In this document: positions 1,050 to 6,366 of the stretch, in pieces
Position numbering within the stretch: the stretch's first letter is position 1
Layout of the letters: the number at the start of each line of letters is the position of its first letter
Source of the DNA: an uncultured Bacteroidota bacterium
GTDB taxonomy: Bacteria; Bacteroidota; Bacteroidia; Bacteroidales; SZUA-534
DNA: 6,366 bases
NCBI GenBank assembly: GCA_937885735.1
Contig: CALABN010000352.1
Coordinates: 1 to 6,366, forward strand
Direction: 5' to 3'
Notes under the pieces: generated by a model
Told to the model about the DNA's origin: nothing
Databases searched by the model: none
What the model saw: only the letters and a program-made list of their open reading frames with translations
Made by a program: the position numbers and the translations under genes

Positions 1050-1469
1050 TTACTTCTGCTTGCGGCGGAGCGCGAGACCCGTGACACCGAGGAGGAGCAG
1101 AAGGCCGCTCGTCGGCTCAGGAATGACCGGGGTCGGCGAAGTAATCTTCGTCCAGGTCATCCCGGAACCGAGCACACTTTGAGTCATGGCCTTATCTGAG
1201 GAGTTGAGGTAGCTCCTCGAATCAACCATATACCAATCGCCTTCGCCAATCTGACCGTCCTTGTTGGCATCGTAGGTGAAGATAATCGACGCATAAGACG
1301 TGGCGTCCTTATCTACGACATCCTTGCTGCCAGTCGCCGTAAAGGTCGTGTTACCACCACCACCAGAACGAGCAGCCGTGAACGACGTTTTCTTCTCGGT
1401 TTGTCCGGAGACCGTATAGAAACCGTCTTCCCCCTTGGTGGCGTAGGTATCCCACAGCGTTGACGCATC
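1050..1469 (-). CDS. PEP-CTERM sorted protein with an EF-hand-like loop, N-terminus missing
   Basis: About 140 residues can be trusted, from DASTLWDTYATKGEDG to the TAA at 1052-1050. The C-terminus is a textbook PEP-CTERM sorting tail: IPEPTSG, a Leu/Gly/Val hydrophobic helix, then RRKQK. Such proteins are exported, cleaved and retained at the surface by exosortase-type enzymes (known for the family). In the middle, YDANKDGQIGEGDW fits a calcium EF-hand loop (D-x-N-x-D-G-x-I-x-x-x-D), as in one half of a dockerin. A Gly-rich patch (RSGGGG) and many Thr/Ser suggest an extracellular protein. A signal peptide is required but absent. The frame stays open to an ATG at 1613, but that extension is the antisense of the collagen coding sequence on the other side of the junction and should not be annotated. 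The 5' end is thus broken at about 1465-1475. The specific function is unknown. Confidence 0.75.
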   Translation of the reverse strand, partial: DASTLWDTYATKGEDGFYTVSGQTEKKTSFTAARSGGGGNTTFTATGSKDVVDKDATSYASIIFTYDANKDGQIGEGDWYMVDSRSYLNSSDKAMTQSVLGSGMTWTKITSPTPVIPEPTSGLLLLLGVTGLALRRKQK

Positions 1470-1480
1470 AATGGCACCAA
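1460..1480. other. Probable chimeric junction between two unrelated genomes
   Basis: Left of here the minus strand encodes a PEP-CTERM protein lacking its signal peptide. Right of here the plus strand encodes a collagen-like protein lacking its start. Gly-X-Y periodicity begins at 1473 (NGTNGTNGEKGDKG). One step back, at 1464, the expected Gly codon is CGC, and at 1461 the frame meets TGA. Base composition, ribosome-site type and taxonomic signature all change across this point. A few bases such as GCATCAATGGC could belong to either side, so the breakpoint cannot be placed more exactly. Confidence 0.75.
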
Positions 1481-4400
1481 CGGCACTAACGGCGAAAAGG
1501 GTGACAAGGGTGACACTGGTGCAACAGGTCCTCAAGGACCTCAAGGTCCTCAGGGTGCTGCAGGAACCGGACTCAATAACAATGGAGGATGGAAAGAAGG
1601 CACAGTTTATCATTCTGGTGATTATGTGTTTGCTCCAAGTAGCAACGATCCGTCAACACACACAATGTGGATATTGGAAACAGATTCCCTGTTGTCAACG
1701 ACAGTGCCAACCGCAGGCGATGGCAATTGGGTTGAATTCCATGCTCCCGAAGGCCAGCCAGGTGCCGACGGCTCGGGCATAGCATATGTTACATTTAATG
1801 ACGACTATACAATGACTGTCACTCTTGAGGACAGCAGCAAATATACATCGGCATCAATCCGTGGCGAAAAGGGTGAGCAAGGCCTGCAAGGAGAACAAGG
1901 CCCACAAGGTCCACAAGGCCAGGCCGCAACCATTGCCATTGACACGGTAATTACAGGCGAGCCAGGAAGCTTGGCTATTGTCTCAAATGTTGGCACTGCA
2001 TCTGAAGCAAAACTAAGGTTCGTCATACCACAAGGAGCAAAGGGTGATCAAGGCGATCAGGGACAGCGCGGAATACCGGGTGAAAACGGTCAGGCCGCAA
2101 CCATAGAAATAGGAACAGTTACTTCTGGAACGGAAGCACGTGTTGAGAATAAAGGCACGGTAAATGCGGCCAAACTGAATTTTGTTTTGCCAAAAGGTGA
2201 AAAAGGCGATAAAGGCGATGCTGCTACAGTTGCCATAGGTAATGTGACAACGGGTACAGAGGCGTCTGTTGAAAACGTCGGGACAAGCAATGCCGCCATT
2301 TTAAACATTGTTTTGCCAAAAGGGGAAAAAGGTGATCAAGGTGAAGTAGGTCCCCAAGGCCCTCAAGGACCTATTGGCGCAACTGGTCCACAAGGTCCAC
2401 AAGGACAAAAGGGTGATGCTGGTACAGGATTGACCAACAAGGGTGATTGGAAAACAAACACTGCATATTCATCAGGCGATTATGTGTTTGCCGAAAGTTC
2501 ATCCGATGCCAGTGTCAATTCCATGTGGATAGCAAAGGCAAATGTAACATCTTCGGACCAGCCTAAAAACGACTTGACAAACTGGGTTGAATTCCAGGCT
2601 CCATCTGGACAAGACGGCGTTGGCATAAGAACAATTACAAACAACAACGACGGCACACTCACTTTCTATTTGACTGATGGCACTAATTTCAAGACTCCAG
2701 ACCTTACAGGTCCACAAGGTTTAAAGGGTGATAAAGGTGACCCAGGTGAAACCGGAGCCAAGGGTGATACAGGTAAGACTCCAAATTTAACCATTGGAAC
2801 GGTAACGTCAGGAAATGCAGGATCATCACCTGCAGTGTCAATTACAGGAACCACTGACAATCCGGTGCTTAACTTTACCATACCACAAGGTAGCACAGGT
2901 ACGCAAGGACCTCAAGGCGCCCAAGGTGAAAAAGGTGCAACGGGTGCCGCTGCTACAATTGTTGTAAATTCTACAACTACAATAGCTGCCGGCAATAGTG
3001 CGAGTGTCACTAATTCAGGTGATGCAAACAATGCGAAACTGAATTTCAAAATACCACGCGGTGCCGATGCAAAAGTGTCGGTAGGATCAACAACGACACT
3101 TGATGCGGGTTCGCAGGCCACAGTGTCAAATAGCGGCACGTCTTCCAATGCTGTGCTTAATTTTGGCATTCCAAAAGGAGAAAAGGGCGACAAGGGTGAC
3201 GACGGCATGCAAGTGCCAGGCACCAAGGGCCAGACATTGGTGCACAACGGCACCACATGGGTGGCCACAAGCGAGCTGCCGGCCTTGAATGTAAAGGAGC
3301 CTGCAACAGCCACCGAAGAACCATTGTTCTCAGTAAAGGACAAGGATGGCAACGTGGTGTTTGCAGTCTATCCAAATGCAGTGCGCGTATATGTTGATGA
3401 AGACAACGGCAAGGCAATGCGAAGCGGCTTTGCGGTAAGCAAGCGCCATTCAGCCACCAAGGAAGATGCCGACAACGACATATTTGCAGTAAACACAGAA
3501 GGTACACAGGTATATATCGACGACAGCGAGGGCAAGGCAATGCGAAGCGGCTTTGCGGTAAGCGGACGCCATTCGGCCACCAAGGGCGGCAATGGAGATT
3601 ATTTCACAATCAATGCCGATAGCACCCGTATCTATATTGACGACAGTGAGGGCAAGGCAATGCGAAGCGGCTTTGCGGTAAGCGGACGCCACTCAGCCAC
3701 CAAGGGCGGCAATGGAGATTATTTCACAATCACAGCTGACAGCACCCGTATCTATATTGACGACAGCGAGGGCAAGGCAATGCGAAGCGGCTTTGCGGTA
3801 AGTGGACGCCATTCGGCCACCAAGGGCGGCAATGGCGACATTCTGAAAGTTACCAAAGACAGCACCCGTGTTTATGTTGACGGTGGTTCAAGCAAGAGCG
3901 GCTTTGGCGTTGAAGGCAAGGGCTCTGCCGATGGCAAGTCTGGTTTCTCTGTTGAGGAAAAAGGTGCTTCTGGCAATGCAAGTTATTTGAATGTTACATC
4001 TAAAAACTTCTTTGCAGGCTACGATGCAGGTCGCAGTAGTTCAAAGTCCACTTCTAGTTTGCTGGGAGGCAATAATACTTTTGTAGGTAACGGCGCTGGC
4101 ACGAAAAATGTTATCGGAAGAAACAACGTGTTTATAGGCGATAGTGCAGGCCATAATAATACCGGAGGTAGAAGCATAAAGGCAGAAGGACGAACTAGAA
4201 TTATTACATATACAGGTAGTTCAAATGTATTTATGGGCGATAAGGCTGGATTCTTAAATGAAAAAGGTAATTATAATGTGTTTATTGGTTATAATTCAGG
4301 TTATTCGAATACAGCTTCAAATAACACATTCCTTGGCTATCAGACAGGTTTGTCAAATACATCTGGCGCCAACAATGTATTCATTGGTACAAGTGCTGGC

Positions 4401-5480
4401 AACTCAAATACTACGGGTGCCAGCAATGTGTTTTTGGGATATAATGCAGGTCAGTCAAATGCTAAAGCATCAAATAATGTTTTTTTAGGTAAAGAGGCTG
4501 GTTATAAAAATGATAATCCAACAAACAATGTGTTTATAGGCAATCAAGCTGGGTATAGTAATAATTCGAATATTTCGTATCAACAGGAAAATCCTTTGAC
4601 GAAGGAATTTGAAACTTTTTATGACGGTTCTGACAATGTGTTTATAGGCAATCAATCCGGTTTCAGCAATACGACTGGTTTTTATAACGTTTTTTTGGGA
4701 AACCAGGCTGGGTATTATAACACGAAAGGCTGGAACAATATTTTTATTGGAAATTTAGCTGGTGCAAATAATAAAGAGGCAAGCAATAATATTTATATGG
4801 GTAAAGAGGCTGGATTTTCTACAGAAACAGGTAGTTGTAATGTGTTGTTGGGTACTTGTGCAGGTAAATTTATTGTAGATGGAACCAGGAATACGATGGT
4901 AGGTTATTATGCTGGTTTGTTTAATGAAAAATCATATAATGTGTTTATAGGAAATTCTGCTGGGTGTTATAATTATGAGGGTACAGGTAATGTTTTTATC
5001 GGTAATGAAGCCGGTTATAACGAAACCGGTAGCAATAAACTTTACATAGCTAATTCAAGTACTTCGATACCTCTTATCTGGGGCGATTTCTCAAATGGTG
5101 TCGTAAAGGTTAATGGTAGTTTCTCATATACTTCCGATGCCCGTTTCAAGGAGAACATAAAGATCCTTGAAAACGCATTGCAGAAAGTAATGAAAATGCG
5201 CGGTGTAACCTATACTTGGAAGACAAATGCCGAGATGAACGAGATAAGGGGCATTAAAACCGATTCAGTTGACAATTCACGAATGCAGGAAGGAACCCAG
5301 TTGGGTGTAATTGCACAAGAGATTGAAGAGATTGTGCCTGAGGTTGTCATTACTGACGAAGAAGGATTCAAGTCGGTTGACTACATTAAACTCACTCCGG
5401 TCCTAATTGAGGCTATAAAGGAACAGCAGAAAGAGATAGATGAACTAAAAAAAATGGTTCAGCAGTTGATGGAAAAGTAA
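1464..5480 (+). CDS. Giant collagen-like / tail-fibre-like surface protein with S74 chaperone, 5'-truncated
   Basis: The frame is open from 1464 (after TGA at 1461) to TAA at 5478-5480, 1338 residues. There is no plausible start: the GTG at 1626 is an internal valine in a conserved GDYVF motif. Order of modules: collagen Gly-X-Y tracts (1473-1568, about 1866-1922, 2037-2093, 2325-2429, 2706-2777, 2892-2948, 3180-3230); two CBM5/12-like modules; six beta-spacer copies; a junction segment near 3231-3386 with GKGQTLVHNGTTWVAT and an FSVKDKDGNVVFAVYPN strand-rich piece; four 40-41-residue repeats; a 17-turn beta-solenoid; and a peptidase_S74 domain with C-terminal coiled coil. Collagen and S74 are trimeric in known proteins, so a secreted homotrimeric fibre is inferred. 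No T9SS C-terminal domain is seen. The missing start is likely a signal peptide plus NYQAVVR-type domain, as in the next gene at 5919. Promoter and start lie beyond the junction. A strong terminator follows. A prophage tail fibre is an alternative, but no phage genes are visible. Confidence 0.9.
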   Translation, partial: RINGTNGTNGEKGDKGDTGATGPQGPQGPQGAAGTGLNNNGGWKEGTVYHSGDYVFAPSSNDPSTHTMWILETDSLLSTTVPTAGDGNWVEFHAPEGQPGADGSGIAYVTFNDDYTMTVTLEDSSKYTSASIRGEKGEQGLQGEQGPQGPQGQAATIAIDTVITGEPGSLAIVSNVGTASEAKLRFVIPQGAKGDQGDQGQRGIPGENGQAATIEIGTVTSGTEARVENKGTVNAAKLNFVLPKGEKGDKGDAATVAIGNVTTGTEASVENVGTSNAAILNIVLPKGEKGDQGEVGPQGPQGPIGATGPQGPQGQKGDAGTGLTNKGDWKTNTAYSSGDYVFAESSSDASVNSMWIAKANVTSSDQPKNDLTNWVEFQAPSGQDGVGIRTITNNNDGTLTFYLTDGTNFKTPDLTGPQGLKGDKGDPGETGAKGDTGKTPNLTIGTVTSGNAGSSPAVSITGTTDNPVLNFTIPQGSTGTQGPQGAQGEKGATGAAATIVVNSTTTIAAGNSASVTNSGDANNAKLNFKIPRGADAKVSVGSTTTLDAGSQATVSNSGTSSNAVLNFGIPKGEKGDKGDDGMQVPGTKGQTLVHNGTTWVATSELPALNVKEPATATEEPLFSVKDKDGNVVFAVYPNAVRVYVDEDNGKAMRSGFAVSKRHSATKEDADNDIFAVNTEGTQVYIDDSEGKAMRSGFAVSGRHSATKGGNGDYFTINADSTRIYIDDSEGKAMRSGFAVSGRHSATKGGNGDYFTITADSTRIYIDDSEGKAMRSGFAVSGRHSATKGGNGDILKVTKDSTRVYVDGGSSKSGFGVEGKGSADGKSGFSVEEKGASGNASYLNVTSKNFFAGYDAGRSSSKSTSSLLGGNNTFVGNGAGTKNVIGRNNVFIGDSAGHNNTGGRSIKAEGRTRIITYTGSSNVFMGDKAGFLNEKGNYNVFIGYNSGYSNTASNNTFLGYQTGLSNTSGANNVFIGTSAGNSNTTGASNVFLGYNAGQSNAKASNNVFLGKEAGYKNDNPTNNVFIGNQAGYSNNSNISYQQENPLTKEFETFYDGSDNVFIGNQSGFSNTTGFYNVFLGNQAGYYNTKGWNNIFIGNLAGANNKEASNNIYMGKEAGFSTETGSCNVLLGTCAGKFIVDGTRNTMVGYYAGLFNEKSYNVFIGNSAGCYNYEGTGNVFIGNEAGYNETGSNKLYIANSSTSIPLIWGDFSNGVVKVNGSFSYTSDARFKENIKILENALQKVMKMRGVTYTWKTNAEMNEIRGIKTDSVDNSRMQEGTQLGVIAQEIEEIVPEVVITDEEGFKSVDYIKLTPVLIEAIKEQQKEIDELKKMVQQLMEK
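1584..1748 (+). other. CBM5/12-like (tail-fibre type) module, copy 1
   Basis: The segment shows the spacing G-W-(x5)-V-Y-(x2)-G-D-Y-V, then M-W-I, a Pro, and N-W-V-E-F. This matches the aromatic/GD-V/W...W pattern of the small CBM5/12 fold, which in chitinases binds polysaccharide and in phage fibres serves as a spacer or receptor module. Copy 2 at 2442-2603 matches it closely in protein but less so in DNA. Carbohydrate binding is inference. Confidence 0.5.
1923..3179 (+). repeat. Six dispersed copies of a 35-39-residue beta-rich spacer between collagen tracts
   Basis: Copies at 1923-2036, 2094-2198, 2220-2324, 2778-2891, 2949-3062 and 3063-3179. The consensus is roughly A-A-T-I-x-I-G-T-V-T-x-G-x-x-A-x-V-x-N-x-G-T-x-x-x-A-x-L-N-F-x-I-P-x-G, and each ends at I/L-P-x-G where Gly-X-Y usually resumes. 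Copies 5 and 6 are directly abutted without collagen between them. Similar segments occur in phage tail fibres and collagen-like surface proteins (general knowledge of the class). DNA of the copies is clearly diverged, so the duplications are old. They probably act as register-setting trimeric knobs along the stalk; this is inference. Confidence 0.75.
2442..2603 (+). other. CBM5/12-like (tail-fibre type) module, copy 2
   Basis: It reads G-D-W-K, T-A-Y-S-S-G-D-Y-V-F, S-M-W-I-A-K, P, then T-N-W-V-E-F-Q-A-P. It retains the three Trp and the GDYVF core of copy 1. As in copy 1, it is followed by a G-x-G-I piece with an N-x-D-x-T-x-T...L-x-D strand pair (2616-2700) before collagen resumes, so the duplicated unit is really module plus beta strands plus collagen. 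Confidence 0.5.
3387..3869 (+). repeat. Four tandem 120-123-bp coding repeats
   Basis: Units at 3387-3509 (123 bp), 3510-3629, 3630-3749 and 3750-3869 (120 bp each), with a degenerate fifth beginning at 3870. Each encodes V/I-Y-I-D-D-S-E-G-K-A-M-R-S-G-F-A-V-S-G-R, then HSATKGGNGD and a variable strand ending D-S-T-R. Units 2-4 are nearly identical in DNA, including third codon positions; the central KAMRSGFAVS block is shared by all four. This implies recent duplication or ongoing homogenisation. The period is a whole number of codons, so unit gain or loss keeps the frame. The likely fold is a repeated beta hairpin in the stalk. Confidence 0.92.
4071..5033 (+). repeat. Beta-solenoid of about 17 NNVFIGxxAG repeats
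   Basis: Roughly 17 copies of N-N-V-F-I/L-G-x-x-A-G-x-x-N-x-x-G, 16-18 residues apart, for example NNVFIGTSAGNSNTTG and NNVFLGKEAGYKN. Two turns carry insertions: about 4168-4221 (between copies 2 and 3) and about 4569-4630 (between copies 9 and 10). A degenerate turn (FFAGYDAGRS) precedes the array. The spacing, buried V-F-I-G strand and Asn ladders recall the YadA head / Hep_Hag left-handed beta-roll, also trimeric, although the motif is not the same (N-S-V-A-I-G there). The DNA is markedly more AT-rich than the collagen part and copies differ at the DNA level. The array ends with the NKLYIAN...PLIWGDF segment that often precedes S74 domains. Confidence 0.85.
5133..5477 (+). other. Peptidase_S74 intramolecular chaperone domain with coiled-coil tail
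   Basis: The final 115 residues begin with S-D-A-R-F-K-E-N-I, the hallmark of the endosialidase-type C-terminal chaperone. In the family the Ser (codon 5133-5135) and the Lys five residues on (5148-5150) form the auto-cleavage dyad; both are present, so cleavage between Thr and this Ser is predicted. Further family signatures are G-V-T-Y-T-W, Q-L-G-V-I-A-Q-E-I-E, V-P-E-V-V and Y-I-K-L-T-P-V-L-I-E-A-I-K-E-Q. A heptad Glu/Lys/Leu coiled coil runs to the stop. Its known role is to trimerise and fold the fibre and then be released. Confidence 0.9.
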
Positions 5481-5498
5481 AATTGACATTTATACAGC

Positions 5499-5534
5499 AA
5501 AGGGCAATGGACTACGTTCTGTTGCCCTTTTTTT
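5499..5534 (+). terminator. Intrinsic terminator of the fibre gene
   Basis: Perfect nine-base arms AAAGGGCAA (5499-5507) and TTGCCCTTT (5522-5530) enclose a 14-base loop. A run of seven T (5528-5534) covers the stem foot. It sits 18 bases after the stop at 5480. It separates the fibre gene from the next gene, which has its own promoter. Confidence 0.9.
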
Positions 5535-5550
5535 GTTTATGCAGTCACAT

Positions 5551-5617
5551 GTCATGCTGAACTTGTTTCGGCATTTCGTCCAGCCTTCACGCTTTCCCGT
5601 GTCAGGCGTTGAATGAC
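5551..5617. repeat. Imperfect palindromic intergenic repeat (REP/BIME-like)
   Basis: The ends are inversely related: GTCATGCTGAAC at 5551-5562 against GTTGAATGAC at 5608-5617 (reverse complement GTCATTCAAC, two-base gap and one mismatch). Inside are a hairpin ATGCTGAA/TTCGGCAT (5554-5561 with 5567-5574, one wobble) and a small CACG/CGTG stem (5588-5591 with 5598-5601). Words like GTCATGCTGAACTTGTTTC are familiar as interspersed intergenic repeats in Bacteroidota genomes; this is recollection, not a search. Confidence 0.5.
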
Positions 5618-5754
5618 GGAATATTGGAGGATACACCAGTGTCCGGTTACAGTTTATTCTTGTATAGTCATTGCATTTTGCCGTTATGTAGTGATGACTT
5701 TTTTCAAATTATCAGATGTTATTGAGAATTAAAAACCCTATATCCTAATCCCGA

Positions 5755-5772
5755 TCCCGAAAGCGTTCGAGA
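5755..5772. repeat. Small inverted repeat flanked by ATCCTA direct repeats
   Basis: TCCCGAA (5755-5761), AGCG loop, TTCGAGA (5766-5772) pair with one mismatch. ATCCTA occurs just before (about 5742-5747) and twice after (5784-5789, 5791-5796). The arrangement looks like degraded intergenic repeat material. No function can be assigned. Confidence 0.35.
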
Positions 5773-5803
5773 CTAAATCCCACATCCTACATCCTAAATA
5801 TAA

Positions 5804-5815
5804 ATACCTAGGTAT
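5804..5815. promoter_or_regulatory. Perfect 12-bp palindrome upstream of the promoter, possible operator
   Basis: ATACCTAGGTAT is its own reverse complement and is bracketed by two direct copies of TATAAATA (5799-5806 and 5813-5820) that overlap its ends. It lies about 70 bases upstream of the -7 element of the 5919 gene. A dimeric regulator could bind here, but AT-rich intergenic DNA yields such palindromes by chance, so the role is a guess. Confidence 0.3.
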
Positions 5816-5863
5816 AAATACTTATTATCTACTTTATTTTCAAAAATATAGGACAAAAAAACC

Positions 5864-5890
5864 TTGTATTGAAAAAATAAATTACCTTTG
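5864..5890 (+). promoter_or_regulatory. Bacteroidota-type promoter (-7 TAnnTTTG)
   Basis: TACCTTTG at 5883-5890 matches the Bacteroidota -7 consensus TAnnTTTG exactly. A weak -33 candidate, TTG at 5864-5866, lies 16 bases upstream, slightly short of the usual spacing. Transcription would start near 5893-5898, giving a leader of about 20-25 bases that is A-rich and has no Shine-Dalgarno, as is usual in this phylum. It fixes the ATG at 5919 as the start and supports the phylum assignment. Confidence 0.75.
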
Positions 5891-5918
5891 TAACAAAATT
5901 AAATAAACCTATCATTCT

Positions 5919-6366
5919 ATGAGAACATTTGGAAAATCCCTATTGGCAATAGCCATGCTATTCTCGACTATTGCAGTGAATGCCCAAACCGATGGATTCA
6001 ACTATCAGGCAGTGGTACGCAATGCACAAGGCGAACTTGTGGGCAACAGTTCGGTTTCCTTGCGCATCAGTCTTGTTAATCAAGATGGCACTACAGTGTA
6101 TTACACAGAGACACAGACAGTGGAGACCAACGCACAAGGTGTGTTGTCTGCCGTTGTAGGAACAGGAAATGTAATAAAAGGCACATTCGACAGTGTGGCT
6201 TGGGAATCAGGCAACATCTGGATGAAAGTTGAGGTGGACATAACAGGCGGTACCAACTATGCCGACCTTGGCACAACCAAGCTGCAGAGCGTTCCATTCG
6301 CCAACTATGCACTAAACGGCAAGAAGGGCGACAAGGGCGACAAAGGTGATAAGGGCGACAAAGGTG
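5919..6366 (+). CDS. Secreted collagen-like fibre protein, N-terminal part (runs off window)
   Basis: From the ATG at 5919, 149 codons stay open to the window edge. Residues 1-22 are a signal peptide (MRTFGK, hydrophobic core to about 18, V-N-A then Gln at +1, a common Bacteroidota pattern). Residues about 23-132 form a beta-rich N-terminal domain beginning G-F-N-Y-Q-A-V-V-R-N-A-Q-G-E-L and ending L-Q-S-V-P-F-A-N-Y-A-L. This type of domain opens many Bacteroidota secreted proteins that end in tail-fibre/S74 domains. From residue 134 a Gly-Lys/Asp collagen tract (GKKGDKGDKG...) starts and continues past the window. It is probably a tandem paralogue of the 1464-5480 gene and likely has the same modular plan, but its C-terminus is not visible. 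It is transcribed separately from its own promoter after a terminator. The start is very well supported. Confidence 0.9.
   Translation, partial: MRTFGKSLLAIAMLFSTIAVNAQTDGFNYQAVVRNAQGELVGNSSVSLRISLVNQDGTTVYYTETQTVETNAQGVLSAVVGTGNVIKGTFDSVAWESGNIWMKVEVDITGGTNYADLGTTKLQSVPFANYALNGKKGDKGDKGDKGDKG
6315..6366 (+). repeat. Start of a Gly-Lys-X/Gly-Asp-Lys collagen tract
   Basis: A nine-base period of GGC/T-GAC/T-AAG/A repeats runs to the window edge, encoding alternating GDK triplets after NGKK. The DNA is close to a simple repeat here, so contig breaks and misjoins are expected. It resembles the GEKGDKGD words of the larger gene near 1491-1514, 2202-2219 and 3180-3197. Confidence 0.85.

Follow-up and report, generated by a model that had tools for sequence, protein, structure and literature searches.

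A probable mosaic adhesive trimer fibre of Bacteroidota, with a type IX-sorted companion gene at related loci

Results

Gene content of the window

The window (the whole 6,366-bp stretch of DNA analysed here) contained two minus-strand genes from position 1 to about 1470, encoding a PEP-CTERM protein and an unassigned protein of 287 aa that is hydrophobic over a stretch close to its N-terminal end, followed on the plus strand by a large fibre gene and the beginning of a second one. The features from the junction rightwards were as follows:

1465–1472, no strand: probable chimeric junction, at which the PEP-CTERM gene (minus strand) and the fibre gene (plus strand) are both cut
1464–5480, plus strand: fibre gene, N-terminus missing; open frame of 1338 codons plus stop (translation and Pfam)
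1473–1571, plus strand: collagen-like Gly-X-Y run 1 (script count)
1569–1754, plus strand: CBM5/12-like knob 1 (included in the alignment behind the knob 2 model)
1863–1925, 2034–2096 and 2322–2429, plus strand: collagen runs 2 to 4, with short modules in between (script count)
2427–2609, plus strand: CBM5/12-like knob 2, modelled (structure prediction)
2709–2780, 2889–2951 and 3177–3212, plus strand: collagen runs 5 to 7, with short modules in between (script count)
3408–3835, plus strand: 40-residue repeat (KAMRSGFAVSGRHSATKGG...), 3.5 copies of a 120-nt unit (tandem repeat finder and script)
4005–5015, plus strand: head region with 16 motif copies, e.g. NVFIGNQAG (script count)
5133–5348, plus strand: S74 intramolecular chaperone/protease (Pfam), with SDARFK at 5133–5150
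5499–5537, plus strand: probable intrinsic terminator, hairpin plus U-run (folding)
5919–6366, plus strand: second fibre gene with signal sequence, MAT_N domain and start of a collagen stalk, running off the window end (NCBIfam and structure model)

The original prediction had described one polypeptide of more than 1300 residues that joins collagen and S74 parts, and this was borne out by a 1338-residue open frame matching Pfam Collagen (five stretches, 1.6e-11) and Peptidase_S74. Its extent as a fibre gene held in so far as the frame was open throughout, but position 1464 was merely the first codon past a stop, the true N-terminus being absent. The frame harboured seven Gly-X-Y runs (script count, each of at least four triplets), and in the head region the motif N-x-[FYVIAMN]-[LVIAYFM]-G-x-x-[AS]-G occurred in 16 copies (raw script count) at spacings of 17 residues in 9 of 15 cases and of 16, 23 or 33–36 residues in the others. 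Peptidase_S74 covered fibre residues 1224–1295 at 3.3e-16 and 59.7 bits, over the curated cut-off of 22; the SDxxxK motif of S74 was present as SDARFK, and a solved relative of the region (6f45) was found at 7e-6. Two CBM-like knobs were located; the predicted structure of knob 2 had a pLDDT of 94.6 and superposed on part of a chitin de-N-acetylase (rmsd 1.1 Å over 47 residues), and the Pfam CBM_5_12 match was weak (0.017; 15.6 bits, below the cut-off of 26.2). The terminator candidate had an MFE of -17.4 kcal/mol, with none of 200 shuffles equally good, and an Rfam scan of the window gave no match.

Junction at about 1465–1472

The sequence read through the join without a gap, as it would if the junction were real and the fibre gene had entered a PEP-CTERM gene by insertion, or had recombined with one, within a single genome; this was nevertheless considered unlikely, since the PEP-CTERM and fibre genes were truncated at one and the same point, GC3 was 0.67 and 0.64 in the two left genes versus 0.38 in the fibre, no transposase or integrase was found in the four proteins scanned, and the contig was short (6366 bp). 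P0125, the PEP-CTERM protein of the window, was recorded on a contig of this length, so the window probably represents the complete contig. The PEP-CTERM homologues P0126–P0129 were 202–210 aa long, had a signal-like start of their own and extended upstream beyond the similarity to P0003; in P0126, the similarity to the window's PEP-CTERM protein effectively started at DASTLWDTY, the opposite-strand start of the collagen frame. The string GCATCAA, found at the join, might be part of the one gene or of the other. An assembly chimera was the simplest reading and probably the correct one, with the genes at 1–1470 probably coming from a different, high-GC3 organism; it would explain the missing start of the fibre gene.

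Second fibre gene

No frame of at least 60 codons was present in the 438 bp between the fibre gene and position 5919. The product of the gene starting there (P0002) matched NCBIfam NF053851 (Bdello_MAT_N), whose name refers to the mosaic adhesive trimer (MAT) proteins of Bdellovibrio, at 5.4e-13 and 49.1 bits, below the family cut-off of 60. All 13 rows of the MAT_N alignment A2 matched NF053851, and no other family, at an NCBIfam threshold of E 0.01; the model of the beta domain of P0002 had a pLDDT of 82.8. A Sec signal peptide had been predicted for this next gene of the same class, and a Sec-type signal sequence was indeed read at its start.

Homologues and their N-termini

The sequence comparison was applied to two parts of the fibre: (i) residues 830–1338, which had at least 4672 homologues among 7981 scored candidates, and (ii) residues 560–890, which had at least 405 among 7995. 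The homologue set comprised 236 listed proteins, 120 for residues 830–1338 and 116 more for residues 560–890; the MAT_N profile matched 60 of the former 120 and 106 of the latter 116, giving a total of 166 of 236. The missing N-terminus was searched for in these homologues, as had been suggested along with the original prediction, and MAT_N began at residue 60 or earlier in 161 of the 166, preceded by a signal-like stretch in those read. All three of the best listed matches to residues 560–890 (P0142, P0143 and P0014) carried MAT_N, and these same three MAT_N proteins, within the 166, had similar 40-residue repeats. P0143, P0155 and P0144 were used to look in 395, 296 and 395 genomes, respectively, for relatives on chromosomes that share the 40-residue repeats of the window, and gave partial matches only. 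Twenty-one of the 166 MAT_N proteins also had collagen, head and S74 motif, and 20 of these 21 had a knob as well. No MAT_N was found in 70 of the 236 listed homologues, some of these records being cut; because of these 70, head and S74 appeared to occur on other N-termini too. The name Salinivirgaceae stood on 12 of the 120 rows listed for residues 560–890.

MAT_N was further sought in a sample of 198 genomes belonging to the same phylum as the genome G001, which had been reached via a Spirosoma contig carrying head-type proteins. It was present at E 0.001 in 53 of the 198, weak matches included, while strong MAT_N places (E 1.2e-17 or better) numbered 51 in 36 genomes. A search with NF053851 gave no match in the Spirosoma genome and none in 14 control genomes either, and was thus uninformative.

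Companion gene at MAT_N loci

Forty MAT_N loci from 34 genomes, chosen from the upper parts of the match lists and not at random, were read for neighbouring genes. By script, 34 of the 40 displayed, beside the MAT_N gene or gene pair, a same-strand gene for a protein of 150–217 aa whose C-terminus was of the type IX sorting type (hereafter the companion); it was upstream of MAT_N in 33 loci, at a distance of 30 bp or less in 28 of these. Companions of the first 20 loci had served to train the profile, and 18 of these loci were positive; of the second 20, which were outside the training, 16 were. Each of the nine companions tested matched TIGR04183 and Pfam Por_Secre_tail. Two of the six misses (L121 and L149) had a companion-like gene on the downstream side of the MAT_N place, some 2 kb away. 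Under a looser rule applied by eye (a neighbour on either side with a sorting domain or the companion N-part, some of greater length or truncated where the contig stops), the companion was seen at 8 of 14 and 3 of 4 further MAT_N loci, making 45 of 58 for all loci together.

A profile restricted to the companion N-part (A6, 10 rows), with the sorting domain left off, matched 29 places in 20 of the 198 sampled genomes, all 20 being among the 53 with MAT_N; 28 of the 29 places (19 of 20 after removal of the profile's 9 own seeds, which had been selected by this very neighbourhood) lay within 3 kb of a MAT_N place on the same strand. Conversely, an A6 place was found within 3 kb of 28 of the 51 strong MAT_N places; because the other 23 were without one, the profile must lack sensitivity or else the companion must be missing from some loci.

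A C-terminal sorting domain of their own was found in none of the 166 MAT_N homologues versus 6 of the 70 without MAT_N (Fisher p 6e-4, relatedness ignored). A 1771-aa head-repeat protein (L200, 6698–12013) had 27 motif copies, no MAT_N and a T9SS sorting domain of its own, a pattern suggestive of mutual exclusion between the MAT_N and own-T9SS export routes. At another locus (L181, 5064–8615), the gene for an 1183-aa protein that carries the companion N-part and a sorting domain immediately preceded a MAT_N gene of 1002 aa, so the companion can be enlarged. A third locus (L184, 1059–10150) resembled the window in harbouring two large MAT_N genes in tandem; their products, of 1339 and 1470 aa, had head repeats, and a companion did not adjoin them. 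The companion was likewise not present in the window between the two fibre genes (5481–5918), the upstream side being lost; because neither this interval nor L184 displayed it, the window type may use another route.

Relation to phages and injection systems

The fibre matched 55 PHROG families, with the tail category for most among the best 25 of the 55, had tblastn matches in 101 of 50,697 phage records, and was related through its collagen/knob half to at least 303 loci in IMG/VR, all of which spoke for a gene that encodes the tail fibre or tailspike of a phage or prophage in Bacteroidota. Such an origin was still judged very unlikely: all 101 matching records were below 60% identity and none covered 80% of the query, the closest listed relatives carried MAT_N near the N-terminus, and the MAT_N loci read in whole bacterial genomes had chromosomal neighbours, the MAT_N relatives there lying outside phage structural clusters as far as neighbours were read. 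Homologues among phage genes had been named beforehand as the point that would weigh against a surface role, and the MAT_N of the next gene had no match in the 50,697 phage records (tblastn, E 1e-5). No phage genes were recognised in the window, which is short and probably chimeric. The best Foldseek row for the knob was a baseplate chain from a contractile injection system of Anabaena (E 0.045), but it is extremely improbable that the protein serves as fibre in an extracellular system of this kind, given the signal sequence on the next gene and the T9SS companion as the recurrent neighbour of MAT_N.

Three scans of IMG/VR gave the following: (i) with the collagen/knob half, the best segments of the 80 stretches kept of 303 were 26–39% identical; (ii) with P0002, one locus was found, matching the collagen end only; and (iii) with A2, used as one peptide pattern, MAT_N was found in at least three contigs. 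In L103 (9527–10717), L104 (9479–11419) and L105 (9389–10723) of IMG/VR, a T9SS-sorted small protein and a MAT_N protein formed a cassette of two genes, and the C-terminal parts differed. The IMG/VR MAT_N proteins had 238, 478 and 265 aa, the companion adjoined in 3 of 3 contigs, and phage-type genes (terminase; DnaB-like helicase) were found by PHROG in both of the contigs scanned. The pair in these contigs has the look of cargo that a phage carries for the surface of its host, and not that of a tail gene.

Discussion

Comparison with known systems

PMC10769870 describes 21 MAT proteins in Bdellovibrio bacteriovorus, all with a conserved N-domain of about 130 aa after the signal peptide and 13 of them with the S74 SDxxxK motif; surface location was demonstrated for several, Bd3182 self-cleaves, Bd2439 binds glycans, and the authors had yet to identify what the N-domain partners with. 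The Bacteroidota fibres shared with the Bdellovibrio proteins a conserved beta-rich N-domain behind a signal sequence (here in the next gene and the relatives), a long fibre, S74 with SDxxxK, several paralogues and mosaic tips, but differed in coming from Bacteroidota, in having relatives often accompanied by a T9SS companion gene, and, for the window, in a collagen stalk with CBM-like knobs; the words collagen and Bacteroid were absent from the main text of PMC10769870.

Phage tail fibres and tailspikes, of which K1F and T5 are named in the same paper as bearing S74 chaperones, likewise have a C-terminal S74 chaperone, and collagen and small modules occur there too; the MAT type has an export signal and MAT_N, whereas the phage type has a virion-binding N-terminus. 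The streptococcal Scl and Lcl collagen-like adhesins resembled the fibre in a collagen stalk on a surface protein, and weak NCBIfam matches to them were obtained, but the scores were far under the cut-offs (Lcl, 79.5 of 500 bits). The Scl/Lcl families are not known to have S74 or MAT_N.

Identity and proposed working of the fibre

The window fibre is most probably a Bacteroidota version of a MAT fibre (probability about 0.8, its proposed working included), the source being probably a Salinivirgaceae-like member of the Bacteroidales. That a phage-fibre design had been reused as a bacterial surface appendage was the central claim of the original prediction, and it was supported by MAT_N and signal-like N-termini in the relatives and by chromosomal loci mostly with a T9SS companion; a phage-like fibre design outside the virion is right but already published for the Bdellovibrio MAT proteins. 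The window fibre itself would have carried MAT_N, to judge by its relatives and the next gene, its own N-terminus being absent and presumably lost at the chimeric contig junction.

By analogy with the protein families concerned and the Bdellovibrio work, trimerisation, cleavage, display and adhesion may be pictured as follows: a Sec-exported N-terminal MAT_N beta domain would tether the fibre to the cell; a trimeric stalk built of collagen and short modules would bear the CBM-like knobs, with the repeat head coming next; the C-terminal S74 would aid trimerisation and then cleave itself off to leave the mature tip, cleavage having been demonstrated for the MAT protein Bd3182 of Bdellovibrio; and the fibre would probably bind glycans of another cell, of mucus or of plant matter.

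Companion as partner of the MAT fibre

From the loci of the relatives, we propose the companion as an export or anchoring partner of the MAT fibre. At even odds, the Bacteroidota MAT is a two-gene system in which the companion, made just upstream and equipped with an N-domain of its own and a type IX sorting domain, binds MAT_N and either takes the trimer across the outer membrane or fixes it there, the phage copies being cargo. No description of the MAT_N/companion gene pair was found in the literature searched, covering titles and the beginnings of abstracts. The linked companion is the new part, and the fibre itself is a variant of the published MAT.

If the two-gene proposal is true, the fibre's own C-terminus would stay free for S74 cleavage, and the companion would be the surface partner left open in PMC10769870. 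Beyond the bacterial predator whose tool it was described as, the MAT design probably recurs in another phylum, and the T9SS companion offers a concrete, testable candidate for the surface element that holds MAT fibres.
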